Shown one piece after another: positions 1,521 to 33,159 of a stretch of DNA of 41,234 nt (its first letter is position 1; every line of letters begins with the position of its first letter). This DNA is from Acidobacteriota bacterium (GTDB lineage Bacteria > Acidobacteriota > UBA4820): contig JAKQCT010000026.1 of NCBI GenBank assembly GCA_029559035.1, positions 1-41,234 of the forward strand, written 5' to 3'. Below the pieces are notes generated by a model. It did not search any database. It had not been told where the DNA came from and saw only the letters and a program-made list of their open reading frames with translations. Both the position numbers and the translations under genes were made by a program.

Positions 1521-1606
1521 GCGTTGTTACACGTTGTTCCATTTTTTGATTGACAGAAAGCTGATAGGGGTATATCTTGCCATCATGGAACAACACGGAA
1601 CAACAC
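1521..1606 (+). promoter_or_regulatory. Promoter of the GTPase gene with flanking paired operator repeats
   Basis: TTGACA (1550-1555) and TATCTT (1573-1578) are 17 bases apart. On the left are two tandem units, GCGTTGTTAC (1521-1530) and ACGTTGTTCC (1531-1540). On the right is a perfect tandem pair of GGAACAACAC (1587-1596 and 1597-1606), the inverse of the left pair. This gives four sites symmetrically bracketing the core promoter, just before the ribosome site at 1607-1614. It looks like a looping or double-occupancy repressor site. The regulator is unknown. Confidence 0.65.
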
Positions 1607-1622
1607 AAAGGAGGTAATGGAG

Positions 1623-3911
1623 ATGAGCGACAGTAAAGCGAAAGCCACCTTAAGCCGGGGCAGACAAAGCTGGTGCGTCATATTCCGCCATCCCGTTTGT
1701 TTGGGACCAGATGGCAAACAGAAACTGCGAGTCAGGCGGGGGCTGGGCACCCATGAAAAAGAGCAGGCACAAACGCTGGTCGATCAGCTCAATCAAATTC
1801 TTGCCGATCCGGCCTTGTGGAATTTGTCAAGCCGCGAAACCGCGTCAAAGAGCTTTGATGAGAAAATTGTGGCCGCATTTTATGACCCCATGCTTCCGGC
1901 TGCATTCGACCCATGGAGTATCCGGGAAGAGTTTATTCCCCTGCCGGGGGGAAAAGATCCTTCAGACGGTTATGCACGTGTCCTTTTCGTGGGGACCACC
2001 GGTGCCGGCAAGACCACCATTGTTAGACAACTTCTCGGCACCGATCCAGAGCGTGAACGTTTCCCGTCCATATCCGCAGCGAAAACTACCATATGCGACA
2101 TTGAAATCGTTCTCGATGAGGGACCGCTGAGGGCAGTGATTACCTTCATTCCCCGAGACCGCGTTCGGCAATACATTTCTGAGTGCGTTCTTGCTGCCGT
2201 AGTAACCAAGTTGGAGGGCGGGCCTGAGCGGGACGTCATCCGGCGATTCCTCGAACATAGCGAACAGAGGTTCAGGCTGAGTTACATATTGGGCAATCCC
2301 ACCTTTCTTGAGAGATCCGTGACTGACGAGATCGAGGATGAAGACGAAGACTCAATGCTGGACCCCTCCGAACACCAGGAACTCGGAGAAAACGAACGCG
2401 AAGAATTGTTGAATGCTCTTAAAGCATACTTCCGCTCAATCGACCAGCTTGAAGAGAAGGCTAAAGATGTTATGGGAAAAATGGCCAGTGAGCTTGGTAT
2501 CGGGATTGGGCAAGCAACGAAAGAAGACCGTGAGGTTCTTCAGGAGTTGGTTGAAGACCATCTGGCAAACATGGATGAGTTCCACCAGCTCGTGGATGTC
2601 ATTCTGGATGATGTTGAGAGCCGCTTCGATTTTCTGTCGGATGGCGAAACTTCCAAGGGCAAAGATGGATGGCCAATAAAATGGACCTACCAGGATTCTG
2701 ATCGATCCGCTTTTATCAGGCTTGTGAACAGGTTTTCGAGCAATTACGCTCCCAATTTCGGTCGACTCTTGACCCCACTGGTTGAGGGTATTCGGGTGGC
2801 CGGTCCTTTCAGGCCTGATTGGCATGACGGTGCCGTGCCGAAAATCGTAATAATGGATGGTCAGGGAATCGGCCATACGGCTGATAGCACTTCAAGCCTT
2901 TCCACATCAATAACCAGTAGGTTCCGCATGGCCGATGCGATTGTATTGACTGACAATGCTGCACAGCCAATGCAGGCAGGACCGTGTGCCGTGCTCCAGT
3001 CACTGGTCATCAGCGGGCATGAATCAAAATTACTCTTAGCCTTCACTCATTTCGATGAGGTCAAAGGGGATAATCTCCACGGGAATGCTGCAAAAAAAGA
3101 CCACGTCATAGGCTCGTTCGATAACGCTGTTCATGCAATCGGTAAAAGTTTCGGCAGAGAAGCCGAATCCGCACTTCGCAACCTTATTCCTGACCGCCTT
3201 TTCTTTTTTGCCAATATTCAGAGAAGACTGCCTGATTCCGCAAAATTCACACTGTCTGAAATGCGACGGTTCTTGGCTGCGATAGGGTCGTCGATTGTTC
3301 CTGCCGGCCCGGTGGAATATACACCCGTATATGATGTGGCCAACCTTGTTCTGGCGATTCAAAAAGCGGCTCAAGAGTTCCATGATAAATGGCGGGGCAT
3401 TCTCGGTATGGGTTCGGTAGCAGGGGTTAGACCGGAGCACTGGACGAGGGTGAAAGCGCTTTCCCGACGACTGGGAATTTTCAAAGTGGATGAGTATGAC
3501 ACACTGCGGCCGGTTGCTGACATGATAAAGCTCTTACAGATTCATGTAAGCCAGTTTCTTTCAAATCCGCTCGGTTGGTTACCTTCTCCTCCTCCCGATG
3601 AAAGTCAGGATCGTATTGATGCCATTGATGCTGTCAAAAAGGAAGTTTTTACCAGACTCCACGAACTATCAAGGCGCAGGATTTTAGAGGAACGCCTGCG
3701 CGAATGGGTGTCGGCGTATGAACATCGCGGGATAGGGTCGACACGACGTCGGGCGAGAGAAGTTGCGACGATCTATGAAGAAGCGGCACCTATCCCCAAT
3801 GAGATGCCAGGGCCCGACGCGAATAAATTCCTATTTGAGTTGAGAGGGCTTATCGCTGGCTCCGTCAAAACCGCAGGGGGGCAGCTTAGGGGGTGGGCGG
3901 AACAGGAATAG
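1623..3911 (+). CDS. Dynamin-like P-loop GTPase with N-terminal integrase-arm-like domain
   Basis: This 763-residue soluble protein has two visible parts. Residues about 10-60 (SWCVIFRHP, then RRGLGT and a helix ending LVDQLNQIL) look like the arm-type DNA-binding domain of tyrosine recombinases, but no recombinase domain follows. A P-loop GTPase region has GTTGAGKT near 124-131, a switch-like SAAKTT, a DGQG G3 motif near 410 and THFD as a G4-like motif near 475. About 270 mostly helical residues, including an acidic DEDEDED patch, separate the P-loop from G3, as in large GTPases. The start at 1623 is preferred over ATG 1617 because AAAGGAGG ends eight bases before it. It is the only clearly real plus-strand gene in the element and is richer in AT than its neighbours, so it is probably cargo. 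I recall similar proteins without known function; a defence role is inference. Confidence 0.75.
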   Translation: MSDSKAKATLSRGRQSWCVIFRHPVCLGPDGKQKLRVRRGLGTHEKEQAQTLVDQLNQILADPALWNLSSRETASKSFDEKIVAAFYDPMLPAAFDPWSIREEFIPLPGGKDPSDGYARVLFVGTTGAGKTTIVRQLLGTDPERERFPSISAAKTTICDIEIVLDEGPLRAVITFIPRDRVRQYISECVLAAVVTKLEGGPERDVIRRFLEHSEQRFRLSYILGNPTFLERSVTDEIEDEDEDSMLDPSEHQELGENEREELLNALKAYFRSIDQLEEKAKDVMGKMASELGIGIGQATKEDREVLQELVEDHLANMDEFHQLVDVILDDVESRFDFLSDGETSKGKDGWPIKWTYQDSDRSAFIRLVNRFSSNYAPNFGRLLTPLVEGIRVAGPFRPDWHDGAVPKIVIMDGQGIGHTADSTSSLSTSITSRFRMADAIVLTDNAAQPMQAGPCAVLQSLVISGHESKLLLAFTHFDEVKGDNLHGNAAKKDHVIGSFDNAVHAIGKSFGREAESALRNLIPDRLFFFANIQRRLPDSAKFTLSEMRRFLAAIGSSIVPAGPVEYTPVYDVANLVLAIQKAAQEFHDKWRGILGMGSVAGVRPEHWTRVKALSRRLGIFKVDEYDTLRPVADMIKLLQIHVSQFLSNPLGWLPSPPPDESQDRIDAIDAVKKEVFTRLHELSRRRILEERLREWVSAYEHRGIGSTRRRAREVATIYEEAAPIPNEMPGPDANKFLFELRGLIAGSVKTAGGQLRGWAEQE

Positions 3912-3952: not shown

Positions 3953-4540
3953 TTAGAGGTAGTCCCTCAATCCGGCGTCTTCGAAGATCGCGCGCAGCTT
4001 TTTGATGGACTCGTAGATCGTTCCCCGCGGAATCCCGGTGTCGCGGGAGATCTCCGTGACGGTGTCGGTATCGAGACGGCGGCACAGCTCACGCAGCTCG
4101 GGCGGAAGTTTCTCGATTGCCTTGCGAACGTCGAGGGAGAGATCACGCAACTCGGAGGCAGGGCGTGAAAGTCTGCCCGTGCGGCGCAGGTAATCCTCCT
4201 GATCGATGGTCTCCATACGCTCGACGGAGCCGCCTTCCTCGTCTTCCAAGCGGTCGTTGAGCGAACAATTGCAGAGCCGGTAATCCCGCAGTCCGGCCTT
4301 CCGCGCCTCGATGATGGTGGCGATCTTGTGTTCCACCACGCGGGCGATAAAGGTGTTGCGTTGGGCGCGGTCGGGGTTGTACTTGGGCAGGCGTTGGAGC
4401 AGGTCCATCAGCATCTCCTGCTCCAGGTCCTCGCGGTCAGACTCGGTGAAGCCCACCCGTCCGACCAGTTGTCTCGCCTTGTACTTGATGATCTGAACGG
4501 CATACTCGTCGATTCCTTCGTAGCGTTTGTCGAAACCCAT
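3953..4540 (-). CDS. Sigma-70-family (ECF-like) factor
   Basis: The 195-residue product has a region-2-like segment at about 34-75 (DLEQEMLMDLLQRLPKYNP, then FIARVVEHKIA) and a region-4 helix-turn-helix at about 140-185 (IEKLPPELRELC, TEISRDTGIPRGTIYESIKK). This two-domain plan is that of small alternative sigma factors. A charged linker near 98-130 joins them. The start at 4540 has GGAGG five bases upstream, but that site sits inside a perfect 8-bp hairpin, so translation may be controlled. A sigma factor on a mobile element could direct transcription of the element's own genes. Its promoter sequence is unknown; the repeated leader motifs are candidates. Confidence 0.8.
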   Translation of the reverse strand: MGFDKRYEGIDEYAVQIIKYKARQLVGRVGFTESDREDLEQEMLMDLLQRLPKYNPDRAQRNTFIARVVEHKIATIIEARKAGLRDYRLCNCSLNDRLEDEEGGSVERMETIDQEDYLRRTGRLSRPASELRDLSLDVRKAIEKLPPELRELCRRLDTDTVTEISRDTGIPRGTIYESIKKLRAIFEDAGLRDYL

Positions 4541-5259: not shown

Positions 5260-6483
5260 TTATGTGGTCCAGGAGGTGGGCTGATCGGGTTGGTAGGATA
5301 GGAACTCCCCGATCTTTAAGGCGTTTTTCAGATGCTGCCAAAGCGGCTCGTGTTCTTTCTTGATGGCTTTCAGTGCACGATGGATTGCGGCTGAGACGGA
5401 CTGGCGAGCGCGTTCTCGGTCACTTGATGCCTCACGGTTTTTCCCGTGGAGGCCGGTGGACCGAGCGATTTCCTCATTAAGCACTTCACGCTCTTCATTG
5501 AGTTTCTCTTTGCGGGCAAGGTCATTATTGGCCTCGGCTTCCGAAAGTTCCTCGTCTATTTCTGTGATTCGTTCCCTATACTCGCGGCGCGCTCGGTCGT
5601 CGATGACCTCGCCGGCGGAGCCGAAGACAATGGTGTTGTCCTTGCCTATGCCTGCACCCCTCAGCGTTGCGGCGTGGATGTCTTGGCCACCGCTTTGAAG
5701 GAGTTGGCAGATGTAGGTCATGCCTACGGAATCCCCGATGCTTTTCGGGACACCGTCATAGACAGCAAGCCAGGTCTTTCCCTGCTTCTGAAATACCCGT
5801 CGATCTTTCGGATGATCTTCGGCCAGTAGAGACTCAATAACACCCAGAATGCCAATCCAATCAATCGAGAAACTCCTCTGGTCGAAGGCGCTATCCAAGG
5901 CTGCAACGATGATCCCCGAAGCGTCCAGTATCCGACGCCCTTCGGGTGAAAGTGCAACGCCACGAGGCGTCAACATAACGATTCTTTGGGATTGTGGGGA
6001 TCGTTCCAAACGTTGACATCTGGATAGGAAATCTTTCTGGTCCGCGTTCAAGATCGAAAAATAAACGTTCAGGCTGCCGATTCCTTCAACACTCTTCTGC
6101 CCCAGCGGAATCAAACCGTCATGATTCTCAAGACCGCTTCCACTGATGCCATTATCGCGACGGATCGCCGCAGCGAGCTTAGGGAGTGAGATATCATACT
6201 GCCGGATGTCGTCTTCGGTGAGTGGTATCGGATCGAAGTAGTCGTCTTCGTCTGCAACCCCGAATATGCCCTTGGAGGTCCGCCGGACAATCAGGTCACC
6301 CCCAGGAGGCAAGTGATTCGGGCGTGGAATCTCCGTGGCCCTTGATGTTTCCCGCAGGATTCCCTCCGCACGAAGAACACCGAGTTCTTCATCCGGGAAG
6401 CGCTCCAATTCTCTATGGAGAAAGACGGGGCACTCGATCTGGTCGAGGCGCTGGAGCACTAAATGGAGAAGCGTCTCAGTCAA
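5260..6483 (-). CDS. Uncharacterised protein (second cargo gene of the lexA-led operon)
   Basis: This 407-residue soluble protein has no membrane segment or signal. The C-terminal half has a beta-rich stretch (about 225-275, TWLAVYDGVPKSIGDSVGMT) and then a charged helical region (about 295-345, EIDEELSEAEANNDLARKEK) ending in a helix and LSYQPDQP. From memory this C-terminal plan recurs in large bacterial ATPase or TPR regulators, but I cannot confirm it without a search. The N-terminal 200 residues are unrecognised. The start overlaps the end of the 6476-7603 gene by eight bases, so the two are coupled and probably act together. It is less GC-rich than the element core, as expected of cargo. 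Confidence 0.7.
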   Translation of the reverse strand: MTETLLHLVLQRLDQIECPVFLHRELERFPDEELGVLRAEGILRETSRATEIPRPNHLPPGGDLIVRRTSKGIFGVADEDDYFDPIPLTEDDIRQYDISLPKLAAAIRRDNGISGSGLENHDGLIPLGQKSVEGIGSLNVYFSILNADQKDFLSRCQRLERSPQSQRIVMLTPRGVALSPEGRRILDASGIIVAALDSAFDQRSFSIDWIGILGVIESLLAEDHPKDRRVFQKQGKTWLAVYDGVPKSIGDSVGMTYICQLLQSGGQDIHAATLRGAGIGKDNTIVFGSAGEVIDDRARREYRERITEIDEELSEAEANNDLARKEKLNEEREVLNEEIARSTGLHGKNREASSDRERARQSVSAAIHRALKAIKKEHEPLWQHLKNALKIGEFLSYQPDQPTSWTT

Positions 6484-7603
6484 TGATGATCCCCCAGTTT
6501 CTCAAATAGCGGAATACGTCTTCGGCATGCGTGGCCCGCTTGAACTTGATCTTGTTGGTGCCGGAGAGTTCGATGCGTTTTCCCCGCCGGTCGTCGGGGA
6601 ACATGATCTTGAATACGGCCCGGCGGATCGTGCCTCCTGGCAGACGCTTGCGGAGATAGTTCTTTTCCAGCGTCTCCATCACATTCTTGGAGCGAACGAC
6701 GAAGGATGGGCCGTGCGTTTGTTGGATGTTGAAATGAAGCTCAGCGAGGAAGGCCGAATGATCTTCGTCGACCGGCATGTCAAAGTCATCTTCCGCTATC
6801 CGCGCGAGATTGATGCGGTCCGCCGATCCAGGCGAGTCGAAAAAGTCTTCGTCCTTGAGGCAGCACTCGGCAAACGCTTTGCGGAGAGCGGTCTCCTCCT
6901 TTTCAAAACCGGCTTCTATTTCCACCTGCCCGGTTTCATTGTTATAGCTGATGAAGTCCTGCTGCGCGGGACGGAGGATGGTCGGTGCAACTTTCGGCCT
7001 CGTGCGGGTTCCCTTGAAAATCAATTCCGCTTTGACCCGTTTCTCGTGGTAGACGATGAAATTCGTGTATGCACCCTCTTGATAGTGGCGGACGAGAACC
7101 CGGTCACTGTTTTTGTGATCCTTGAAGACTTCGGCGAGTTTTGTTTGGAAGGCGCTGGAAGCCGCATCCGCGTCAACGATGCCCGCTGCCGACTTCCCGC
7201 GAAAAATGGTGAAGCGTTCGGCGCGCCAGAGGTTATACCGATCATACGCAAGGGTAAAAGCATCCTCGTTCTCGCTTCTGACCTTCAGACTCATACATTC
7301 GACTGGTAAATCTCCATTGCCGTCCGGTGCGTATCCGCATTCGTTGCAAGCGGCCACGAGGTCTTCATGGCCTCGCTCGGTACAGAGGTCAAAGGCCATG
7401 TAGAGGCTTTCGAGCAGATCGTCCTTGCCGTCCCCGTCGCCATCGACAAGGAATTCCTTGAAGCGGGGAACATCAAGAGATGCGGCGTCAAGCCCGAGTC
7501 GACCATCCCAAAGGCCAACGAAGTTGCGGAGGATGGCCTCTTGGCCCTGGAATTTATCCAAAAACCGATCCGCATTGAACGTTCGATGCTTGAGCTTCCC
7601 CAT
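6476..7603 (-). CDS. Uncharacterised protein with an EF-hand-like loop (first cargo gene of the lexA-led operon)
   Basis: The 375-residue product matches no domain I can name. Residues about 53-66 read DGDGDGKDDLLE, close to the Ca2+-binding EF-hand loop pattern, though position 8 is acidic instead of hydrophobic. The middle (about 170-215) is rich in strands (RVLVRHYQEGAYTNFIVYHE), and the end is basic and helical. It starts only six bases after the lexA stop and its end overlaps the next gene, so lexA and the two proteins form one transcription unit. Function is unknown; placement under a self-cleaving repressor suggests stress-triggered expression. Confidence 0.7.
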   Translation of the reverse strand: MGKLKHRTFNADRFLDKFQGQEAILRNFVGLWDGRLGLDAASLDVPRFKEFLVDGDGDGKDDLLESLYMAFDLCTERGHEDLVAACNECGYAPDGNGDLPVECMSLKVRSENEDAFTLAYDRYNLWRAERFTIFRGKSAAGIVDADAASSAFQTKLAEVFKDHKNSDRVLVRHYQEGAYTNFIVYHEKRVKAELIFKGTRTRPKVAPTILRPAQQDFISYNNETGQVEIEAGFEKEETALRKAFAECCLKDEDFFDSPGSADRINLARIAEDDFDMPVDEDHSAFLAELHFNIQQTHGPSFVVRSKNVMETLEKNYLRKRLPGGTIRRAVFKIMFPDDRRGKRIELSGTNKIKFKRATHAEDVFRYLRNWGIIID

Positions 7604-7609
7604 TCTCTC

Positions 7610-8257
7610 TTACCTCCCTTGTCTGTGCCGGACGGCGATGACCTTGCCGAGAATACGGAGCCCGTCGTCGGGTCCAACCGGGATCGGTCGATGCTTCGGA
7701 TTTTCCGGTCTTAGTTCTATTTTTTCGTCACGAATGAAAAGCCGTTTCACCGTGGCTTCGTCTTCCAATAGGGCGACCACGATGTCTCCGTTCTCAGCCA
7801 CGGGCTGTTCGCGGACCACAACCAGATCGCGTTCTCTGATTCCGGCGTTGACCATGCTGTCTCCGGCAACTTCGAGGGCGAAGCATCTGCCCGACCGGGC
7901 GATCCTGCCTTCGACCATGATCTCGCCGACGATATTCTCCACAGCCAGAATCGGTCGGCCCGCCGCCACGCGTCCGACGATGGGAATGGCGGTCATGACG
8001 GAGAGTGTGTCCTCCGGTTCGCGGACGATGGCAAGACTCCGGGCTTTTCTCGCCTCGCGTTTCAGGTATCCCTTGCGGACGAGCTGGTTCACCTGTCCAT
8101 GCGCACTGGCGTGCGATATCCCGAGAATATCGGCAAGCTCCTTTATGGTCGGGGGGAACCCCCGATGGTTCGTGAAACGGCGTATCTCCTTCAAGGCGTT
8201 GATCTGTGTGTCGGTTATCTCCTCAACAGGGCGTCGGCCTCTGCCTTTACGTTCCAT
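7610..8257 (-). CDS. lexA: LexA-type repressor of the element
   Basis: The 215-residue protein has the winged-helix DNA-binding domain of LexA (FPPTIKELADILGISHASAH, about 34-53) and an S24 protease domain. The expected autocleavage bond Ala99-Gly100 lies in RVAAGRP, the catalytic Ser134 in GDSM and the catalytic Lys171 in TVKRLF. RecA-triggered cleavage would derepress its targets. The start at 8257 is preferred because GAGGT lies seven bases upstream; the longer frame to 8341 begins without a site. The two uncharacterised cargo genes follow six bases after its stop, so it likely controls its own promoter and them. A typical length for the family is 200-240 residues. Confidence 0.9.
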   Translation of the reverse strand: MERKGRGRRPVEEITDTQINALKEIRRFTNHRGFPPTIKELADILGISHASAHGQVNQLVRKGYLKREARKARSLAIVREPEDTLSVMTAIPIVGRVAAGRPILAVENIVGEIMVEGRIARSGRCFALEVAGDSMVNAGIRERDLVVVREQPVAENGDIVVALLEDEATVKRLFIRDEKIELRPENPKHRPIPVGPDDGLRILGKVIAVRHRQGR

Positions 8258-8354
8258 TTCGATGACCTCGGTCTTCCTGAGTCTTGAAAGCCTCATGAAC
8301 GACATCGGCCGCGGTGCCGAGTGGAGGCACACTACGGCCACGTTACAAAATGCT

Positions 8355-8494: not shown

Positions 8495-8929
8495 TTATTC
8501 GATGCGGTCTTTGCGCATCTGCGCCCACATTTTGCGCTGACGGTTCCAGTGGGGAACGGCCGCGACGGGCCGGAGGTCCCTCTCCAGGATCAGGTCGCGG
8601 CCCTTGGTTGTATTCGGTAGGAAAAGAATGTCCTCCTGAATGTCCGGAGCGAGATTCAGCAAGTTCATGATCTGGGTGATGCGCGCCCGGGTCACGTAGC
8701 CGAGGCGGGCAAGGTCCGCGTAGTCTTGTACCTCGCCGCGCCGGACCAGCCCGTCGAAGCGGATCGCCAAAGCCAGAAGCCTGGCGACACGGGGGATGTT
8801 CCCTTTGCCGGTTGAACCGCTCTGGTTGTCGGATTGTGCCCCGCCGGACTTGCGTTTGTTTCTCGGCTGGAATGTGAAGCTCACTTCCAAGTGCCCACCG
8901 CCGCCCGAAAGACGTATCGTCGAGGTCAT
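8495..8929 (-). CDS. Helix-turn-helix partner of the serine recombinase
   Basis: The 144-residue protein starts at 8929, where ATGA overlaps the recombinase stop. The N-terminal 35 residues are basic and glycine-rich and probably disordered. Residues about 68-95 (DYADLARLGYVTRARITQIM) form a clear helix-turn-helix like ParB/KorB-type DNA binders, and the C-terminus is basic. Small proteins of this type often follow large serine recombinases on mobile elements, and it may be a recombination directionality factor or repressor. That role is inferred from position. Confidence 0.7.
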   Translation of the reverse strand: MTSTIRLSGGGGHLEVSFTFQPRNKRKSGGAQSDNQSGSTGKGNIPRVARLLALAIRFDGLVRRGEVQDYADLARLGYVTRARITQIMNLLNLAPDIQEDILFLPNTTKGRDLILERDLRPVAAVPHWNRQRKMWAQMRKDRIE

Positions 8930-10539
8930 GTGCGCTCCTCCACTCCACGGGTTCCGTCTCCCATGCACATTGCCTTGATGCCGGGGGATCGGAACGTCAC
9001 GGTCACTTTGCCGTCGCGTCCATCGTAGGCGACACGCTCGACGAGGGTCTTGATGATCCGCGCCTGCTCGCGTGGGGCGAGCGATTCCCAAATGGGATCG
9101 AAAGCCGTGAGGGCTTTCTCCAGGTCTCCCTCGTCCAGTGTTTCTTTCTGAATGGCGACGGTTTCCTCCCGGATGGCGGTCATCCGCTGCTCCAGAGACC
9201 GTATCTGGTCCTGAAGATCGGCCATCTGATCGGTCACCAGCCGTCGGTCCGTGCTTGATGTGGGCGACTCGGCCACAAGGGCGCGGAGTCTGACATCCAG
9301 CCGTTTGAGTTCGCGCTCGTGGGCCCGACGTTCGGTTTCGAGTTCCGTCAATCGCTTTTGGCTCTGTGCCCGCACCTCTGATGCCGTCTTCGAAAAGACC
9401 TCCGTGCTTGAGCCCAAGCCGCGGATATAGTCGACGACCGCGGTTTCGATCTCATGGGCGTTGAGCGATTTGGTCGGACAGGCCGTCCATCCGCGTTGCT
9501 GGGCGGTCAGGCAGACGTAGTAGCGGTAGTGCCTTCCGTTCTTGGCGGTGTAGGTATGCACCATGGCGGTTCCACAGGGCGCGCAGTAGAGCAACCCCCT
9601 CAGCAGCGCTCCGTATTTGTTGCGGATATCCTTTCCGCCGGAGCGGCCGTTGTGCCGCAGGGTATCCTGTACCCGCTGCCAGAGGTCCGGGTCCACGATT
9701 CCCTCGTGCTCCCCGCGGTAAATGGTGCCCTTGTAGCAGACGTTGCCTGTGTAGACGACGTTGGTGAGCAACCGAAAGAGGCTGCTTTTGTTGAACAGAT
9801 TCCCGCCGCGCACATCCCCTCGCTGGGTGGTCCACTGTTTTGCCCCCCACTTGCGGCGTTCGAGTTCCTGCACGACGGGGATCAGTGCTTTATGCTCCAG
9901 GTAGAGGTCGTAGATGCCCCGCACTTTCAAAGCCTCGTCTTCGTTGACGATCAGCCGTCCACCCTTACGATCCACGTCATAGCCTAGGACAGGCATGCCC
10001 CCGACCCATTTGCCCTTCTTGCGGGCCGCGGACATCTTGTCTCTGGTCCGCTCCGAGATGATCTCCCGCTCGAACTGGGCGAAGGAAAGTAGGATGTTTA
10101 GGGTGAGCCGTCCCATGGAGCTGGTCGTGTTGAACTGCTGGGTGACAGAGACAAAGCTCACGGCGTGCTTGTCGAAGAGCTCCATCATGCGGGCGAAGTC
10201 CAGGAGAGACCGGCTCAGACGGTCCACCTTATATACCACCACGCAGTCGATGCCGCCGGATTCGACATCGGCGAAGAGCCGCTTGAGGGCCGGGCGCTCC
10301 ATATTGCCGCCGGTGAAACCACCGTCGTCGTACCGCTCTGAGATGCACAGCCATCCCTCATGCCGCTGGCTCGCGATATAGGCTTCCGCGGACTCCCGCT
10401 GGGCATCGAGGCTGTTGAAGTCTTGGTCGAGACCTTCGTCGGTGGATTTCCGGGTATAGATGGCGCAACGCACGGTCGTCCTGTGAGTCTCCACCGATTG
10501 CCGGATGGATGGATTGTTTCTTTCCGCAGGTCTGCTCAT
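8926..10539 (-). CDS. Large serine recombinase (integrase of the element)
   Basis: The 537-residue protein has the resolvase catalytic domain at about 22-170, with the nucleophile Ser32 in IYTRKST and Arg107/Arg110 in KVDRLSR. A recombinase domain follows at about 185-310, then a zinc-ribbon segment (CAPCGTAM and later YYVC and TACP cysteines, about 325-375) and a long coiled coil at about 395-470. This is the full architecture of phage- and ICE-type large serine integrases, so the gene is probably active. It starts with a four-base overlap with DUF2924 and ends overlapping the helix-turn-helix gene, so the three are one operon. It catalyses integration and excision through Ser-DNA intermediates. 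Confidence 0.93.
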   Translation of the reverse strand: MSRPAERNNPSIRQSVETHRTTVRCAIYTRKSTDEGLDQDFNSLDAQRESAEAYIASQRHEGWLCISERYDDGGFTGGNMERPALKRLFADVESGGIDCVVVYKVDRLSRSLLDFARMMELFDKHAVSFVSVTQQFNTTSSMGRLTLNILLSFAQFEREIISERTRDKMSAARKKGKWVGGMPVLGYDVDRKGGRLIVNEDEALKVRGIYDLYLEHKALIPVVQELERRKWGAKQWTTQRGDVRGGNLFNKSSLFRLLTNVVYTGNVCYKGTIYRGEHEGIVDPDLWQRVQDTLRHNGRSGGKDIRNKYGALLRGLLYCAPCGTAMVHTYTAKNGRHYRYYVCLTAQQRGWTACPTKSLNAHEIETAVVDYIRGLGSSTEVFSKTASEVRAQSQKRLTELETERRAHERELKRLDVRLRALVAESPTSSTDRRLVTDQMADLQDQIRSLEQRMTAIREETVAIQKETLDEGDLEKALTAFDPIWESLAPREQARIIKTLVERVAYDGRDGKVTVTFRSPGIKAMCMGDGTRGVEERT

Positions 10540-11075
10540 TCATTCCTCCTGTTCGGCTCTCCGTTTTGCTTTCGCGGCTCCTTGGATTCCGCAAGTCCGA
10601 AAAAGAGGAATCCGTTCCATTTGCTGCCCGTGGCCTCCTGGGCGATTGCGGAGAGGGACTTGAACCGTCGTCCGTCGTACTCGAAGCCTTTGTCGAGCAC
10701 CTTGACCACGATGTCACGGCCCCGGAACTCTCTGGCCAGCAGCGTTCCGGGCAAGGGCAATCTGCGGTCCCGCAATTGGTGCAACCGGCCGGTCACCGAG
10801 CGCTCCCTGACTTCCATCAACCCCGGTTTCAACGGATCGCGTGGTGTGCGGACCCGGAGATCCGCGTCGTTGGCGATCTCTTCAGCCCTCCGCTTGGCCC
10901 GCTCCGAAAGATCGCCCTCGGCCATGGCTTGAATTCGCCAGGCAATCCGTTTTCGAAGGAAGTCTTTGTGGTACGACCTCGTTTCCTCGCCGAAGACATC
11001 GATATACCGCTCCCGAAGTTCCCCTACGGTCATCCGGGAAAGTGCCTGCACCTGCTGATAAGTCGTTTCATTCAT
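10536..11075 (-). CDS. DUF2924 family protein
   Basis: The 179-residue protein contains the DUF2924 signature: RRLPLPGTLLAREFRGRD, then EYDGRRFKSLSAIAQEATGS and a WNGFLFFGL end. The N-terminal half is helical and basic. DUF2924 proteins are commonly encoded next to large serine recombinases on mobile elements, and the family function is not established. The gene has an AGGAGG site seven bases before its ATG and its stop overlaps the recombinase ATG by four bases. A role as a DNA-binding accessory of recombination is inference. Confidence 0.85.
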   Translation of the reverse strand: MNETTYQQVQALSRMTVGELRERYIDVFGEETRSYHKDFLRKRIAWRIQAMAEGDLSERAKRRAEEIANDADLRVRTPRDPLKPGLMEVRERSVTGRLHQLRDRRLPLPGTLLAREFRGRDIVVKVLDKGFEYDGRRFKSLSAIAQEATGSKWNGFLFFGLAESKEPRKQNGEPNRRNE

Positions 11076-12077: not shown

Positions 12078-12674
12078 CTATTTGCCTGAAATTGTTCCAC
12101 ATGGAACAGCCGCGAGAAAGATCCCCCAGCTCTCTTCTATCCTATTTTCAACCGAGAACCCGCATTTCCAAAGTTCCGATTCGTAATACTCGCCGGCTTC
12201 TTTTCCGGTCCATACCAGGAAAGGGGCTCCGGGCTTGAGGCTTTTCTGGACGAGTTTCATGAGCCTTGGACGCAGCTTGACTCCTCTTACCGTTATTCCG
12301 TCAACCGTCTTATCGCCGACTGAAAAGTATTCTTCCGCCGCGCTCTCGATCACTTTTGCGGGAAGGCCAAGCTCCGAAGCGCACTCCCTCAGGAAATAAG
12401 CCTTGAGCCTGGCGGGCTCCAAAAGGATCTACTGATCGGCGTTCCCGCACAGGGCGAGAGGTATCGCCGGGATCCCGCTGCCGCTGCCTATGTCCACGAA
12501 GGTCCCGCCCTTGACGAAAGGCAAGCCGCAGAAGGTCGACTCGATCCCCTTCTCCAGGAGCTCTTCCCTCCCGCTGAAAGAAGTCAGGTTCGTCCTGCTG
12601 TTGCAGATGAACAGCTTTTCGATGTACTTCTCCAACTTATCCCGCTTTTCGGCAGCAAGGTCTTCGTATCTCAT
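12078..12674 (-). pseudogene. rsmG: rsmG (gidB), 16S rRNA m7G methyltransferase, with in-frame TAG at codon 82
   Basis: RsmG methylates N7 of G527 in 16S rRNA using SAM. Residues 1-81 include the SAM motif DIGSGSGIP at 61-69. Codon 82 is TAG (12431-12429) and the same frame then continues ILLEPARLKAYFLREC to a second TAG at 12080, so the two halves are one gene with a nonsense codon, not a frameshift. The neighbouring atpD also ends in TAG, so TAG is an ordinary stop here. A CAG-to-TAG change would explain it. The alternatives are a sequencing error or stop readthrough. The ATG overlaps the mnmG stop by four bases. Loss of RsmG is known to give low-level streptomycin resistance in other bacteria. 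Confidence 0.8.
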
Positions 12675-14494
12675 TTTCTCCTGAGCCTTTCGATCTCCAC
12701 GCGGAGGATCGTCAGCGCCGAAGGCGTCACCCCCGGTATCCGCGAAGCTTCCAGCAGGGTCGCGGGCTTCTTTGAGATCAACCTTTCGACGATCTCCCTC
12801 GAAAGTCCCGGCAGACTCTTGATATCAAGCTTTGCAGGGATCCTTGTTCCCAGAGAGCCGGCCAGCTTCTCCGCTTCCTCCCTCTGCCTTTCCCTGTAGC
12901 CTTCGTCCTTTATCTCGGATACCAGGTACGCCCGCATGAAGGGGTCTTCAAGGGATATTTCACTCATTATATTTGGGATATCCGCGTCCGATCTTTTTAA
13001 TAACGTGTACAGGCTCGATCCTTTCCCCCCGAGCTTTTTCGTTTTGAGGTCCGCGAGATGACGGTCGAAGGCTTTTTCCCTGGACCCGCGGAACCCGGAT
13101 TCCCCTTCCGGTATCAACCCTCTTTCTTCGGCGCAGCCGCTCAGCCTGCGGTAGGCCGAATGGCGGTCCAGAAGAAGCCTGTATTCCGCCCTTGAGGTGA
13201 AAAGCCTGTATGGCTCCAGGACCCCGTTGGCCACGAGGTCTGACACCATGACGCCAAGGTAGCTCTCGTGCCGTCCAAGCCTGAAAGGATCTTTCTTTCC
13301 GAGTTTCGCTCCTATGTTGAAAGCCGCGTAGAGCCCGAGCCCCGCGGCTTCCTCGTACCCCGTCGTCCCGATGATCTGCCCCGCGAAATGTAGTCCTTCG
13401 ACGCCTTTGAAACACAGGTCCATGTCAAGGGATGTCGGCTGGATGAAGTCGTACTCCACCGCGTAGCCGTAAGTCAGGACCTTCGCCTCCTCGAGGGCCG
13501 GAATGGACCTTATGAAGGCGTCCTGAGCCTTCCTAGGGAGCGATGTGGATATCCCGTTCGGGTAGATCTCGTCCGAATCAAGTCCCTGGGGCTCTAGGAA
13601 CACCTGGTGCCTTTCATGGTGGGGGAACTTGACCACCTTGTCCTCGAGGGAAGGACAGTACCGCGGTCCTATCCCGCGGATAAGTCCTTTATAGAGAGGC
13701 GATTCTCCGAGGAACGACCTGACTATCTCCGCGGTCTCCTTGGTGGTGTGGGTGATGTGACAGGCCACCTGCGGAAGCGCCGGGAATGGCCTCGAAAAGA
13801 GAGAGAAAGGTTCCGGAACCTCGTCCCCCAGTTGAGTTTCCGCCGCGTCCCAGTTTATTGACCTTCGGGCAAGCCTCGCGGGAGTGCCGGTCTTGAGCCT
13901 GCCGAAGACCACTCCCTGCTTTTCCAGGTTGTCTGCCAGAAGGTTCGACGAGGGTTCACCGATCCTTCCCCCATAGGTTTCCTCTAGGCCGACGAACATC
14001 TTTGCCCTGAGGAAGGTCCCCGAGGTTATGAGCGCCATCCCGGTCCTGAGAATACGCCCGTCCTCCAGCCGTACGCCTCTGACGCGTCCTGCCGAGACCT
14101 CCAGCTCGACCGCCTCTCCCTGCAAGATCTCGAGTAAGGGGCGTCCGGCAAGTATACGGCGGACTTCCCTTGAATACTCCTCCCTGTCCGACTGACAGCG
14201 CAGCCCCTGGACGGCGGCCCCCTTGCTGCCGTTCAGGATCCTGAACTGGATCCCGGTCCTGTCCGCCGCCTTTGCCATCAGGCCGCCGAGAGCGTCTATC
14301 TCTCTGACCAGGTGTCCCTTCCCGACTCCGCCGATGCTCGGATTGCAGGACATCCTCGATATGGCGTCTCCGTCGTGGGTCACGAGGGCTGTATCGAACC
14401 CCATACCCGACAGGATATAAGCGGCCTCGGCCCCGGCGTGCCCTCCGCCGATGACCACCGCGTCATATTTCGTCCCTTTGTTCCCCGTCCTCAT
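12671..14494 (-). CDS. mnmG: MnmG (GidA), tRNA U34 carboxymethylaminomethyl-modification enzyme, FAD subunit
   Basis: The 607-residue protein is full length for the family. The FAD-binding GGGHAGAEAA motif lies near 16-25, with SCNPSIGGVGKGH just after it, and the C-terminal helical domain ends in a tRNA-interacting region. MnmG and MnmE together install the cmnm5 group at wobble uridine 34 of tRNAs, using folate carbon and FAD. It overlaps mnmE upstream and rsmG downstream by four bases each, as in many bacteria where these genes are co-transcribed. Confidence 0.97.
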   Translation of the reverse strand: MRTGNKGTKYDAVVIGGGHAGAEAAYILSGMGFDTALVTHDGDAISRMSCNPSIGGVGKGHLVREIDALGGLMAKAADRTGIQFRILNGSKGAAVQGLRCQSDREEYSREVRRILAGRPLLEILQGEAVELEVSAGRVRGVRLEDGRILRTGMALITSGTFLRAKMFVGLEETYGGRIGEPSSNLLADNLEKQGVVFGRLKTGTPARLARRSINWDAAETQLGDEVPEPFSLFSRPFPALPQVACHITHTTKETAEIVRSFLGESPLYKGLIRGIGPRYCPSLEDKVVKFPHHERHQVFLEPQGLDSDEIYPNGISTSLPRKAQDAFIRSIPALEEAKVLTYGYAVEYDFIQPTSLDMDLCFKGVEGLHFAGQIIGTTGYEEAAGLGLYAAFNIGAKLGKKDPFRLGRHESYLGVMVSDLVANGVLEPYRLFTSRAEYRLLLDRHSAYRRLSGCAEERGLIPEGESGFRGSREKAFDRHLADLKTKKLGGKGSSLYTLLKRSDADIPNIMSEISLEDPFMRAYLVSEIKDEGYRERQREEAEKLAGSLGTRIPAKLDIKSLPGLSREIVERLISKKPATLLEASRIPGVTPSALTILRVEIERLRRK

Positions 14495-15840
14495 TTTCCT
14501 ATGCAGAAACCGCTGAAAATAAGATCGTACAGCTCTTCCCCCGAAGCTGAAAGGAGCAGTTCGTCTATCTCCCTCTGGGCTTCCCGCGCTTTCTCCGCGG
14601 CAAGAAGCTCGTTCTCTCCGGAAGTCACCGCTTTTTCCGCTTCAGCAAGAGCCGCTTCGATCCCGAGCAGGCATTCTTCCTGCCTTCCGTTCATGAGAAA
14701 AATACCTTTCTTCGGCAGGTTCCTTTTTCCCCACTCGGAAAGCCTCTTTATCAGGCCGTCCATGCCCTCCCCCGTCCTGTTGCTTATTTCAAGGGCTTTT
14801 AGTGCGGCTCCATGGCCTTTTTTTCCGTAAAGGTCCTTCTTCGAGGCAATGAACAAAAGCGGTTTCCTGTCCAGCATCCTCAGCGCTTCATCGTCCGCGG
14901 CATCCCAGCCTCTGCTACCGTCGAAAAGGAACAGGACCGCGTCCGCTCTTTTCGCGCTTTCCAAAGCCCTTAAGATCCCTTCCTTTTCTATCCCGGGCTT
15001 CTTCCTCCTGGCGCCCGCCATGTCCATGAAAACCATGGGTATCCCATCGATGTCGAGCTTTTCCTCTATCATGTCCCTGGTCGTTCCCGGATGAGGCGTG
15101 ACTATCGCCCGTTCCCTTCCCAGCAGGCAATTGAAGAGGGAGGACTTTCCGGAGTTCGGCGCCCCGAATATGGCCACCCTGAAACCTTCACGGACCGGGC
15201 GGCTTCTCCTCGAAAGGGAGAGCGCATCCCTTACGCTTTTAAGGACCGGAAGGAGTTCTTTTTTCCAGGTTTTTATCCCCGGCTGGGGGACCTCTTCCGG
15301 AAAATCTATCCTAGCCTCCCACTTCGCCCTTAGCTGAAGTATAGCCTCTTTAAGGGCGAGGATCCTGGACCGGGAAGATCCGGAGCCGGAGATCCCGACG
15401 GCGCAGGCTTCGAGTTCGGTTTCGGCCCTCACCAGATCGCCGAGGCTCTCAGCTTCCTCCGCGGCCATCTTGCCAGCAAGGACCGCCCGGTATGAGAACT
15501 CCCCCGGAAGAGCTTCCCTCGCCCCCAGTGCGAAGAGGGACGAGCGCAGCCCCCTGATCACGCCTTCCGAGCCGTGGCATTGGAACTCCGCGCAATCCTC
15601 CCCGGTGTAGGAGTTGGGAGATGGAAACGCCAATGCCAGGATCGAGTCCACCGGCTTCCCCTCCAGGTTCCTGAGAAGCCCGCTTACGGCCGTCCTGGGG
15701 TTTTTCCAAGGGTCGGATTTCGAAAAGAAGAGTTTTTTCGTTATCTTTCTGGACAGCGGCCCGGACACTCTCACGGCTCTCAGAGCCGAGCGGCCGGGGT
15801 AGGTCATCTCTCCGAATATGGTTCCTTCAAGGTCAGGCAT
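14491..15840 (-). CDS. mnmE: MnmE (TrmE), tRNA U34 modification GTPase
   Basis: The 449-residue protein has the N-terminal folate-binding domain, a helical domain holding a GTPase insert and the C-terminal FCIGK motif with its essential cysteine. In the GTPase, GAPNSGKS (226-233) is the P-loop and PGTTRD the G2 region. The G3 motif reads DMAG where DTAG is usual, and the G4 motif reads SKKD (333-336) where NKxD is usual. The protein works as a dimer with MnmG. Its start overlaps the yidC end by eight bases and its end overlaps mnmG by four. Confidence 0.96.
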   Translation of the reverse strand: MPDLEGTIFGEMTYPGRSALRAVRVSGPLSRKITKKLFFSKSDPWKNPRTAVSGLLRNLEGKPVDSILALAFPSPNSYTGEDCAEFQCHGSEGVIRGLRSSLFALGAREALPGEFSYRAVLAGKMAAEEAESLGDLVRAETELEACAVGISGSGSSRSRILALKEAILQLRAKWEARIDFPEEVPQPGIKTWKKELLPVLKSVRDALSLSRRSRPVREGFRVAIFGAPNSGKSSLFNCLLGRERAIVTPHPGTTRDMIEEKLDIDGIPMVFMDMAGARRKKPGIEKEGILRALESAKRADAVLFLFDGSRGWDAADDEALRMLDRKPLLFIASKKDLYGKKGHGAALKALEISNRTGEGMDGLIKRLSEWGKRNLPKKGIFLMNGRQEECLLGIEAALAEAEKAVTSGENELLAAEKAREAQREIDELLLSASGEELYDLIFSGFCIGK

Positions 15841-17575
15841 GGGACGGGCGCGAAGGCCCCTTTGGCGTGGATTTCTTTGCCTTCTGGGCTTCGAGCGCCC
15901 TCTTTTCCACCTGCTTGTTGATGATCGCCTGCTGCCCCATTGTCAGGATGTTGTTCGCCAGCCAGTAGAGGGTAAGCCCGGCGGGAGCCCAGAGGCAGAA
16001 CCAGGTGAACATCACCGGCATCGTGTACATCATGACCTTCTGCGTCGGTTCGGTCATCTGCGTTCCGCTCATCATGGTCGAGAGGAACATGGAGATCCCC
16101 ATCAGGATCGGAGTTATGTAAAGCGGGTCGGCAAGGGAAAGATCCTTTATCCACAGGAAGAAATGGGCTCCCCTAAGGTCTATCGTGTTGGGGAGCATCG
16201 TGAAGAGAGCCCAGAAGACGGGAAGCTGGAGAAGGAGCGGAAGGCACCCGCTCATTCCGCCGAGCGGGTTCACTCCCTCTTTCTTGTACAGCTCCATGAC
16301 CTCTTCGTTCATCTTCGCGCGGGTCTGCATGTTCATGCCGATCTTCTTGTACTTCGCCCTGATCTTGTCGATCTGGGGCTTCAGCTTCTTCATCGCCTCG
16401 CCCATCTCCTTCATCTTGACCATCGAGCTCTGGGTGAAAGGATAGAAGAATATCTTCATGACCAGTGTCAGCAGGAGGATCGCTATCCCGTAGTTCGCCG
16501 TGTACGCGTAGAGCTTGTTCAGCCCCCACAGCAGGAAGGCGCAGATCGCCGAGAACCAGCTCCAGCCCCAGTTCATCATCCTGAAGACCTGTCCCCCCAG
16601 CCCTCTCAGGGACGGGTAATCCTTCGGGCCGAGAAACAGCTTCCCCCTGCCTTTCGTTTCAATGATCATCGATATGTCTGTCTCCGAAGGGTGCAGCTCC
16701 TGAAGTTCCGCAGCTACCGACATCGTCCTGACCTTCAGCGAAGAGATGGGCTCCTCAGGAAGGAAAACGGCCGTGAAGTAATTGTTGGCTATGCCCGCCC
16801 AGGAGACGCTTCCTCCGTAGGGCTGATCTTGCGGATCCCCGGAGGGCTTCTTGCCCCTGACCGCCTTGTGGAACTTCCCTCCGGCCTCGTAACCGACATA
16901 TTCCTGCTGGTAATACTTGTTCTTCGCCTGCTCCTTGGTAAGCCTGGAGAATCCCGGCCCCCAGATCAACGGGACGGTTTCGAGGACGCGTCCGTCCCTG
17001 GAAGCGGACATGTCGAACGACATGACATATCCTTTATCTTCCACTCGAAAAGCCTTGATAACGGTATTTCCTTTTCCGTCAGACCACTTGAAGGTCAAAC
17101 CTTGAGCGTTTTGTTCCACATGGAACAGTCCCTCGTTGACGGCCTTGTCATAAGCAGCGTCTCCCGAAAGGACCGCCAGGGGGTAGGACTGTGTGGCTTC
17201 GCTCAAAGGCGAGACAAGGTCGTCCTGGGAGGAAGCTCCTTTTTCCTTGAACTTCTTCATGAAGGCGTGCACCAGCACCGCGCCCCTGTTGGAGAAATGG
17301 AGTTCCATCTCGCCGTTCTCGATCTTGAAGGTGCCGGCCTCATCCGCCGATAGCGGCTCGGACGGGATGATCGGCGGCGCCGGCTGGACGGCGTCCGTGC
17401 GGGTCTCCGGAGAAGCCTTCTCCGCCGTCGCGGGTTGGTTCTTGTTGTCGGTTTGCTCAGGAGGCTTGTTCGGCGTGAAGAACATCGCCCAGACGATAAA
17501 AACTCCCGCGATGAGCGCCGTGGTCAGGATCAACCGTGAAAAGCCGATCGGTTCTTCTTGTCCTATCTGATTCAT
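15833..17575 (-). CDS. yidC: YidC, membrane protein insertase
   Basis: The 580-residue protein has the Gram-negative YidC plan: an N-terminal membrane anchor (LILTTALIAGVFIVWAMFF), a large periplasmic domain of about 330 residues, and five conserved membrane segments (starting YGIAILLLTLVMKIFFYPFT) with the basic cytoplasmic helical loop between them. The long periplasmic domain points to a two-membrane cell. It inserts small membrane proteins such as the ATP synthase c subunit, alone or with SecYEG. The basic C-terminus ends in KKSTPKGPSRPSHA. It directly follows yidD, and no jag gene separates it from mnmE. Confidence 0.97.
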   Translation of the reverse strand: MNQIGQEEPIGFSRLILTTALIAGVFIVWAMFFTPNKPPEQTDNKNQPATAEKASPETRTDAVQPAPPIIPSEPLSADEAGTFKIENGEMELHFSNRGAVLVHAFMKKFKEKGASSQDDLVSPLSEATQSYPLAVLSGDAAYDKAVNEGLFHVEQNAQGLTFKWSDGKGNTVIKAFRVEDKGYVMSFDMSASRDGRVLETVPLIWGPGFSRLTKEQAKNKYYQQEYVGYEAGGKFHKAVRGKKPSGDPQDQPYGGSVSWAGIANNYFTAVFLPEEPISSLKVRTMSVAAELQELHPSETDISMIIETKGRGKLFLGPKDYPSLRGLGGQVFRMMNWGWSWFSAICAFLLWGLNKLYAYTANYGIAILLLTLVMKIFFYPFTQSSMVKMKEMGEAMKKLKPQIDKIRAKYKKIGMNMQTRAKMNEEVMELYKKEGVNPLGGMSGCLPLLLQLPVFWALFTMLPNTIDLRGAHFFLWIKDLSLADPLYITPILMGISMFLSTMMSGTQMTEPTQKVMMYTMPVMFTWFCLWAPAGLTLYWLANNILTMGQQAIINKQVEKRALEAQKAKKSTPKGPSRPSHA

Positions 17576-17811
17576 TATAAAGACCTTTCGCTGTTTTCAG
17601 CCTCTGGGACGGGATCGTAGCCTCCCGCGTGGAAAGGGTGGCACTTCGAGAGCCTCTTGGCCGCCAGCACCCCCCCCTTGAGCGCCCCGAACCTCTCTAT
17701 GGACCCGAAGGCGTAATCGGAACAGGAGGGATAAAACCTGCATGCCGGCGGTAAAATGGGCCTGAAGACCCACCTGTATATCTTTATGAGAAGGAGGAGT
17801 ATTTCCCTCAT
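17575..17811 (-). CDS. yidD: YidD, membrane protein insertion efficiency factor
   Basis: The 78-residue protein has the YidD signature: an N-terminal amphipathic membrane helix, then PPACRFYPSCSDYAFGSIER and CHPFHAGGYDPVP, with the three conserved cysteines. It acts at the inner membrane with YidC to help membrane protein insertion. The start overlaps rnpA's end by four bases and the end abuts yidC, the usual gene order. Confidence 0.95.
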   Translation of the reverse strand: MREILLLLIKIYRWVFRPILPPACRFYPSCSDYAFGSIERFGALKGGVLAAKRLSKCHPFHAGGYDPVPEAENSERSL

Positions 17812-18176
17812 TGCGACAGCTTTTCCGCGAGAAGGGCGAACGATTCCGCCGCCTCCGGCGTCCTCATTTCCGCGGATCCCTTTTTCGCGTTGACGACGAT
17901 GTCGAAGCTCCCGGCGATGAGCGCCCTCTGCCTCCTGAACGCCTCCCTGAGGACTCTCTTCACCCTGTTCCTCACGACCGAACCCCCGACCTTCTTCGAG
18001 ACCGTGAGTCCGAGCCTGTGACGCCCGAGGCCGTTCTCCCTGACGTAAACGACAAAAAGCCGAAAGAAATAAGATCTCTTGATCTCATATACAGAGAGGA
18101 ACTCCCTTCTCTTTCGGAGACGGTCCGTTTTTGCAAAGGTTCCGGTTCTCGGAGTCTTTAGGGCGTGAGGCGCCAT
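17808..18176 (-). CDS. rnpA: RnpA, protein component of RNase P
   Basis: RnpA helps the RNase P RNA cut tRNA 5' leaders. The 122-residue protein contains the family motif [15 protein letters not shown] near 70-84, and the aromatic segment near 37-45. The only reasonable start codon is ATG at 18176, which overlaps the end of rpmH by 19 bases in another frame. Such an rpmH-rnpA overlap is unusual, though Thermus is known to have one. Confidence 0.94.
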
Positions 18177-18292
18177 CGGCCCTTGGCACGCCTGGCGGCA
18201 AGGACCTTTCTTCCGCCCTTGGTGGCCATTCTAGCCCTGAATCCGTGGGTCTTGGCCCTGTGGCGTCTGTTCGGCTGATATGTTCTCTTCAT
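18158..18292 (-). CDS. rpmH: RpmH, ribosomal protein L34
   Basis: The 44-residue protein reads [19 protein letters not shown], followed by the usual [16 protein letters not shown] and RLTP end. This basic sequence is unmistakable for L34 of the large ribosomal subunit. An AGGAAG site lies upstream of the ATG. It starts 29 bases past the atpC stop and overlaps rnpA, so it is probably read with both neighbours. Confidence 0.98.
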
Positions 18293-18321
18293 GACTCAAC
18301 TTCCTTTCGTCGAACGGGTGA

Positions 18322-18747
18322 TTATAGCACAAAACTCTTTTTTTCCAAAAGCAGCAGTTTCTGCGCCGCCTCTTCGTACGAGATGAACGGCCCCCGGTCA
18401 TCCGGTCCGGCCGTCCTGAGCCTGTCCTCGGCGGTCTTTTTCAGCTCTTTCACCCTTTCGATCTCCAGTTCCTCTTCTCTCTCCACTCTTTCCGCTATCA
18501 CGGTCACTTTTTTCGGGAGGACCTCGACGAAGCCTCCCTCCACGAAGAAGCGGCGCGGCTTCCCCGCCGGCCCGGCGAATTCCAGGATGCCCGGGCTCAG
18601 AGTCGAGATGAGCGGAACATGATATACCATGGCGCTCAGGTACCCTTTCGCGCAGGGTATCAGAACTATCGACACTTCCTCCTTCAGGACCCTCCTGAGG
18701 GGGGTTACGATCTCGAGCAATAGGTGCGGTTCGTGCCTGTCGGTCAT
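18322..18747 (-). CDS. atpC: ATP synthase epsilon subunit
   Basis: The 141-residue protein has the epsilon fold: an N-terminal beta-sandwich with MVYHVPLISTLSPGILEF and FVEGGFVEVLPKKVTVIAE, then a C-terminal helical hairpin rich in charged residues. It forms part of the central stalk and can inhibit ATP hydrolysis. Its start is six bases past the atpD stop. It is the last atp gene, with rpmH 29 bases downstream. Confidence 0.95.
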   Translation of the reverse strand: MTDRHEPHLLLEIVTPLRRVLKEEVSIVLIPCAKGYLSAMVYHVPLISTLSPGILEFAGPAGKPRRFFVEGGFVEVLPKKVTVIAERVEREEELEIERVKELKKTAEDRLRTAGPDDRGPFISYEEAAQKLLLLEKKSFVL

Positions 18748-25576: not shown

Positions 25577-25641
25577 AACAATGCATCCGGTTTTTCAACA
25601 TGCGCGGGGCTTTAAGGGGGGAGATCCGGGAGGAGGACGCC

Positions 25642-33107: not shown

Positions 33108-33129
33108 GGCAGCACCCATCCTCGATACA

Positions 33130-33159
33130 ATGATGTAATGGTTCCATAGTGTTGTCAAG
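33130..33159 (-). promoter_or_regulatory. Probable promoter of the TIG-repeat gene
   Basis: On the minus strand TTGACA (33159-33154) and CATCAT (33135-33130) are 18 bases apart. This decides against the 51-base longer open frame, whose ATG would lie within the -35 box. Confidence 0.5.

Follow-up and report, generated by a model that had tools for sequence, protein, structure and literature searches.

The window, the whole 41,234-nucleotide stretch of Acidobacteriota DNA analysed here, carries near one end a gene (1623–3911, plus strand) for a 762-residue protein in which an integrase arm-type domain is joined to a dynamin-like GTPase. The protein family is undescribed. It adds to the bacterial dynamin-like proteins a variant in which such a GTPase is combined with autoregulation by an integrase arm, a regulation that is strongly supported by the sequence comparisons below. 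No entry of Pfam, NCBIfam, PHROG or PADLOC matched the window protein above cut-off, no sequence relatives were found in the PDB, and no description of the family was found in the libraries or in openly searchable papers. Our preferred reading, to which we assign a probability of about 0.6, is that of a mobile, single-gene dynamin-like GTPase that would be autoregulated by its captured integrase arm and would act as an effector that blocks infection. It may thus show how parts of an integrase have been put to new use as the switch that controls a mobile GTPase. A single protein and a DNA fragment of 80 bp would suffice for a direct test of the DNA-binding claim.

The gene and its element

The open reading frame spans positions 1617–3911 of the plus strand (764 aa). 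The start at 1623 was preferred, since it follows a Shine–Dalgarno sequence (AGGAGG, 1609–1614) and agrees with the starts of the homologues. The gene is present in a single copy in the 2.86-Mb assembly. No other gene is on the plus strand in the part of the element that the contig shows (1–11,100), and the GC content of this gene is 51.5%, against 58–61% in the surroundings. An initial sequence-only reading had noted both the lone orientation and the AT-richness, and both are borne out, the former for the visible part of the element.

The other recognisable genes of the element are on the minus strand. A phage exonuclease gene cut by the contig end (1–1008; phrog_1218, E = 3e-50) marks the carrier as phage-like. 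It is accompanied by genes for a phage-type sigma factor (3953–4540; phrog_1740), a LexA-like repressor (7610–8341) whose promoter has no copy of the GTPase operator, a large serine recombinase (8926–10539; phrog_95 integrase) and a DUF2924 protein (10536–11075). As the contig stops inside the element, this is probably a prophage or phage-like element with one end visible. The DUF2924 and recombinase module also adjoins a family member in the viral contig L045. Including a gene for a small protein, three genes are common to the two (window 8495–11075, minus strand; L045:5477–7652), and both the window element and L045 have the GTPase. Two overlapping minus-strand genes (407 and 375 aa, 5260–7603) lie between the LexA-like and sigma-factor genes and gave no convincing family match. 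That their open reading frames (5260–6483 and 6476–7603) are relatives of the L045 neighbours was considered and was unsupported on comparison.

The GTPase domain

Modelling of the protein by AlphaFold2 with 21 homologues gave a mean pLDDT of 83 and a pTM of 0.80. Residues ~110–760 form the dynamin-like GTPase part. The order of elements in the model is P-loop, switch I, a strand pair, an insertion of ~200 residues, G3 and G4. The P-loop GTTGAGKTT (G1) occupies residues 124–132 (1992–2018, plus strand). The insertion, which follows switch I and is mainly helical (residues ~178–405; 2154–2837, plus strand), separates it from the G3 motif DGQG (residues 412–415; 2856–2867, plus strand) and the G4-like motif THFD (residues 475–478; 3045–3056, plus strand). 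This confirms the earlier observation that G3 and G4 lie far beyond a large helical insert. The GTPase motifs are invariant or nearly so in 21 homologues; the conserved set is GTTGAGKTT, switch I FPSxSxAKTT, DG(Q/E)G and THFD, in which G3 reads DGQG or DGEG and G4 has H instead of K. The protein therefore shows the P-loop, switch I threonine, DxxG and (N/T)KxD-like G4 of a dynamin-superfamily G domain.

SynDLP came first (E = 5e-8) in a Foldseek search of the PDB, and each of the ten best folds was either a dynamin-like protein or an EHD ATPase, which supports the dynamin-like assignment made from the sequence. The TM-scores of the dynamin-like matches to the query are low (0.14–0.26, and 0.14–0.24 for the best ten), thus suggesting a dynamin-like G domain within a different body. 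The closest solved folds are bacterial dynamin-like proteins (SynDLP, IniA, Campylobacter DLP1/2, DynA and LeoA, the last of which is also a weak match in PADLOC). Unlike these, the window protein has an N-terminal arm-type domain and the ~200-residue insertion between switch I and G3. It also lacks membership at the sequence level: Pfam Dynamin_N did not match it, and reached 14.8 bits in the homologue L017 and 13.5 in L023 (cut-off 27). Hydropathy gave no transmembrane segment in the window protein. Most genes for bacterial dynamin-like proteins come as operon pairs (PMC6104087), whereas the window GTPase is a single gene.

A second architecture is seen in a distant relative of 977 residues (L038:286–3219). 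It keeps the G domain and the tail, has SKTD as G4 and no arm, and fuses the same G domain, in front, to a PtuA/AriA-type ATPase. The window protein has no such ATPase domain.

The arm domain and its relation to integrases

Residues 1–95 (1623–1907, plus strand) comprise an integrase arm-type domain (three strands and a helix) and two helices. Residues 1–94 modelled alone with AlphaFold2 gave a pLDDT of 88, with strands at 9–12, 17–23 and 35–40, a helix at 46–61 and the two further helices. A Foldseek search of the PDB with the arm domain alone gave no significant match. The family profile matched, through its N-terminal part, four planctomycete open reading frames of 470–570 codons. All four read as tyrosine recombinases, and two (L165 and L166) were checked by NCBIfam. 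Their N-termini scored 30–36 bits against the arm profile (n = 4) in a search that covered these four sequences only, the fair E-values being the per-genome ones of 9e-6 to 8e-4. In L165, the match extends to profile position 91 (GTSDEREALEVSRALATMVRNQEWW...FGERAASAFYDP). Weaker arm-profile matches in Pseudomonadota include three integrases, for which hhalign gave a probability of 80–93%, the three having themselves been picked by the same profile. DUF6538 was a weak match in 8 of 25 family members. The catalytic RHRY domain of tyrosine recombinases is absent from the window protein. The claim of an integrase-arm-like N-terminus with no recombinase domain is thus supported by homology to tyrosine integrase N-termini, the PDB fold search of the domain being null. 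The homology, the order of three strands and then a helix, and tandem arm-type sites near the gene are all present.

In the Actinoallomurus homologue (L023:9536–10000), an unrelated N-terminal stretch of ~150 aa stands in the place of the arm. It was read by eye as ASCH-like; searches of Pfam, NCBIfam and the PDB did not confirm this.

Promoter and operator

The gene is preceded by a sigma-70-type promoter, TTGACA-17-TATCTT (1550–1578, plus strand), with the boxes at 1550–1555 and 1573–1578 and a gap of 17 nt. It matches the consensus, and its position is conserved in homologues. The promoter lies between two operator pairs. The left pair, GTTGTTAC-AC-GTTGTTCC (1523–1540), is upstream of the −35 box, and the right pair, GGAACAAC-AC-GGAACAAC (1587–1604), covers about +1 to +20. 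A 20-nt inverted repeat (1523–1542 and 1585–1604) flanks the promoter on either side; these are the operator repeats of the sequence-only reading. GTTGTTCC is present in 5 copies in the window (1.3 expected), three of them at this promoter. The paired motif GTTGTTNCNNGTTGTTNC is found at just these two promoter-flanking places in the entire 2.86-Mb assembly.

The upstream regions of every homologue were read, and the layout GTTGTTCC-n2/3-GTTGTTCC, core promoter, GGAACAAC-n2/3-GGAACAAC is near-universal. Half-sites are spaced 10–11 bp apart within pairs, and the left and right pairs mostly 57–66 bp apart (47 in L011), which places the four half-sites roughly on one face of the DNA. An operator scoring 26–32 of 32 is present within 260 bp of the start in 34 of 36 arm-bearing homologues, a set that includes some near-identical phage copies. 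The background over 5,535 windows has a mean score of 18 and a maximum of 25. Homologues without the arm (n = 6) score 17–21; they represent two independent losses (L006, and a Rhodococcus/Actinoallomurus group), and no arm remnant was found upstream of them. The other two arm-bearing homologues are exceptions. In L030, a perfect operator (32/32) stands ahead of a DUF4258 gene inserted between the operator and the GTPase, and in L034 a degenerate copy stands at the right place.

The GTPase promoter carries the top operator score of the entire locus in all 33 arm-bearing loci scanned (566 kb). Within a locus, the left operator arm resembles the right one more closely than it does between loci (0 of 5,000 permutations), and in L016 as in L024 the inner half-site is changed alike in both arms. 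In a blind sample of 399 genomes, a full relative found by the protein profile (G606) has an operator of 32/32, and the relaxed operator pattern was found at no other place in these genomes.

Conservation, co-loss, covariation and this hold-out strongly support regulation of the GTPase gene by its own protein. That the regulation is repressive is inferred from the sites, which flank the −35 box and cover the start region. The tight control proposed earlier is strongly supported, and the comparison extends it: the same operator is kept from phylum to phylum and follows the presence of the arm domain. It is unusual that one regulatory site can still be recognised in Planctomycetota, Actinomycetota, Chloroflexota and Bacillota alike. 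The operator would remain so well kept because it moves along with its probable reader, the GTPase protein.

The operator beside integrase genes

Among 2.9 million viral contigs, 14 loci have the strict operator pattern, and 3 of these loci are family members. A tyrosine integrase is present at 10 of the 11 others, mostly directly adjacent and of two types; these loci come mostly from one related prophage group, so the count stands for a few events. L071 and L078 have the repeats immediately ahead of the integrase start. For three planctomycete integrases with the shared arm domain (L166, L167 and L169), tandem TGTTACAA repeats at 12–13 bp lie in the stretch from a tRNA-Val gene to the integrase, and these are likely arm-type sites. 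The simplest reading is that the arm domain was captured together with its arm-type sites. The half-operator GTTGTTCCNNGTTGTTCC occurs at 83 places in the viral contigs, with no clear pattern save a few repeat clusters beside a primase-like gene. Four phage contigs (L089, L098, L131 and L133) have clusters of GTTGTTCC repeats just past a primase-like gene, and no integrase was seen nearby.

The self-regulated tyrosine integrase IntS of prophage KplE1 has the same kind of N-terminal domain as the window protein. The intS promoter overlaps the attL sites for IntS and TorI, arm-type sites included, and self-repression of an integrase gene through a promoter overlapping its own att sites is known for this system; changes made to the arm sites one by one left the repression unrelieved (PMC2951348). 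Unlike IntS, the window protein lacks both a core-binding and a catalytic domain, and the promoter enclosed by its sites is that of a GTPase gene rather than an integrase gene.

Distribution and genomic context

About 50 relatives were found in at least 9 phyla, on plasmids, prophages and chromosomal islands; the scans gave 25 genome loci, 11 plasmids and 15 viral contigs. No family member was found in the phage genome records, and no relative among 99 genomes of the window's own phylum. In blind samples, the seed genome was alone among 397 Actinomycetota and was the only full-length match among 294 Planctomycetota; in 399 Pseudomonadota, the seed was joined by one full and one distant relative. 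A further match (G596) is a TraD-like coupling ATPase and was rejected as spurious. Identity across phyla is 37–68% over about 750 residues. Such identity despite the rarity is what one expects of a gene that is rare and moves horizontally. In the viral contigs L046–L055, the gene stands alone on the opposite strand among phage structural genes (gene identities by eye). Plasmids, prophages and the patchy distribution support the view of the gene as cargo of mobile elements. Near the homologue in L020 is a class II ribonucleotide reductase gene (13699–18570) with an intein bearing a LAGLIDADG domain.

The neighbours of the homologues include type IIG restriction, DrmD-like and ZorD/DpdE-like helicases, MmeI-like enzymes, BREX and OLD-like ATPases. 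DISARM, type IIG (MmeI-like) and SNF2-helicase modules are recurrent at L003, L006, L022, L023 and L029, but none of their known models includes the GTPase. From annotation, 7 of 8 plasmid loci have defence genes, as do 3 of 5 control windows taken from these plasmids, a difference that is not significant, and enrichment in defence islands was rejected on this count. The homologue survey proposed with the sequence-only reading thus bears out linkage to mobile elements, but linkage to defence islands only as a weak enrichment against a small control. PADLOC 2.0 gave no convincing match to the whole protein, only weak matches to the P-loop (mad8 at 1.9e-5, mad3 and LeoA).

To our knowledge, few bacterial dynamin-like proteins are tied to phage resistance. 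Among them, DynA guards Bacillus subtilis against phages via delayed lysis (PMC8844932). Carriage by prophages and islands, the defence-like neighbours, the fusion to a defence-type ATPase and this bacterial dynamin precedent suggest that the GTPase gene probably has an anti-phage or phage-exclusion role.

Proposed mechanism and alternatives

We propose that the arm domain sits on four arm-type half-sites that lie along one face of the helix, a pair to either side of the gene's own promoter. Judging from conservation and co-loss, this binding would keep expression of the gene low. When a phage or foreign DNA enters, this may alter the GTPase's nucleotide state or its oligomeric state, or titrate the arm domain; the complex would then open and the gene would be derepressed. 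The dynamin-like GTPase would assemble and block or delay infection. A role in superinfection exclusion or defence would suit a gene that prophages and islands carry. In a more specific form, which we consider unlikely, the captured arm would be both autorepressor and sensor of the invader: the att arm sites of entering integrative elements would titrate the protein off its operator and switch the GTPase on. If true, such immunity would work by reading the signals with which mobile DNA integrates.

Who reads the operator is one point on which alternatives differ. A separate regulator, either the LexA-like protein of the element or a host factor, is the least probable of them. A LexA-like repressor is indeed encoded in the same element, but the operator is common to at least 9 phyla and absent elsewhere in its own genome, including the lexA promoter, and operator and arm domain are missing together in two lineages (L006 and the Rhodococcus/Actinoallomurus group). 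The LexA-like protein itself was rejected as regulator on two grounds, the lexA promoter without an operator and the conservation of the operator in hosts without the element. The arm could instead serve mainly to target the GTPase to the att sites of incoming integrative elements and so block integration or excision, binding to its own promoter being secondary. The domain is common to integrases and the GTPase, and outside the family the strict operator is almost confined to integrase loci in prophages, with two integrase types. Yet the prophages whose integrases have the exact site are a narrow group, homologues lacking the arm persist, and the operator is conserved with its spacing and symmetry at the GTPase's own promoter in every phylum seen. 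We regard this targeting role as unlikely.

Other alternatives dispense with defence. An accessory protein of mobile elements (a regulator of replication, partition or transfer) rather than a defence effector seems improbable, though we rate it above the other alternatives. Plasmids, prophages and islands carry the gene, and mobile elements are what arm domains normally serve. Ordinary chromosomes also have the gene, however; no replicon, relaxase or recombinase type is fixed and no partner gene is conserved, and in prophages it is a lone opposite-strand gene amid structural genes. It is very unlikely that the protein remodels membranes in stress or membrane repair, with no conflict with phages, and has spread by chance on mobile DNA. 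The fold similarity to SynDLP, IniA and the Campylobacter DLPs is in favour of such a role, but the gene is rare, patchy and prophage-borne, and a DNA-binding domain with a self-operator is unusual for such proteins.

Other features of the window

The rsmG/gidB gene adjoining the element (12078–12674, minus strand) is split into two open reading frames (12078–12422 and 12429–12674), apparently by a frameshift or a stop in a gene that is normally intact. A tRNA-Ser(CGA) predicted at 13609–13687 (plus strand) lies within the mnmG coding region on the opposite strand and is probably a false positive. Further along, a protein with several CxxCH haem-type motifs (25600–28047, plus strand) abuts a 1704-aa protein of repeated IPT/TIG-like domains (28044–33158, minus strand).
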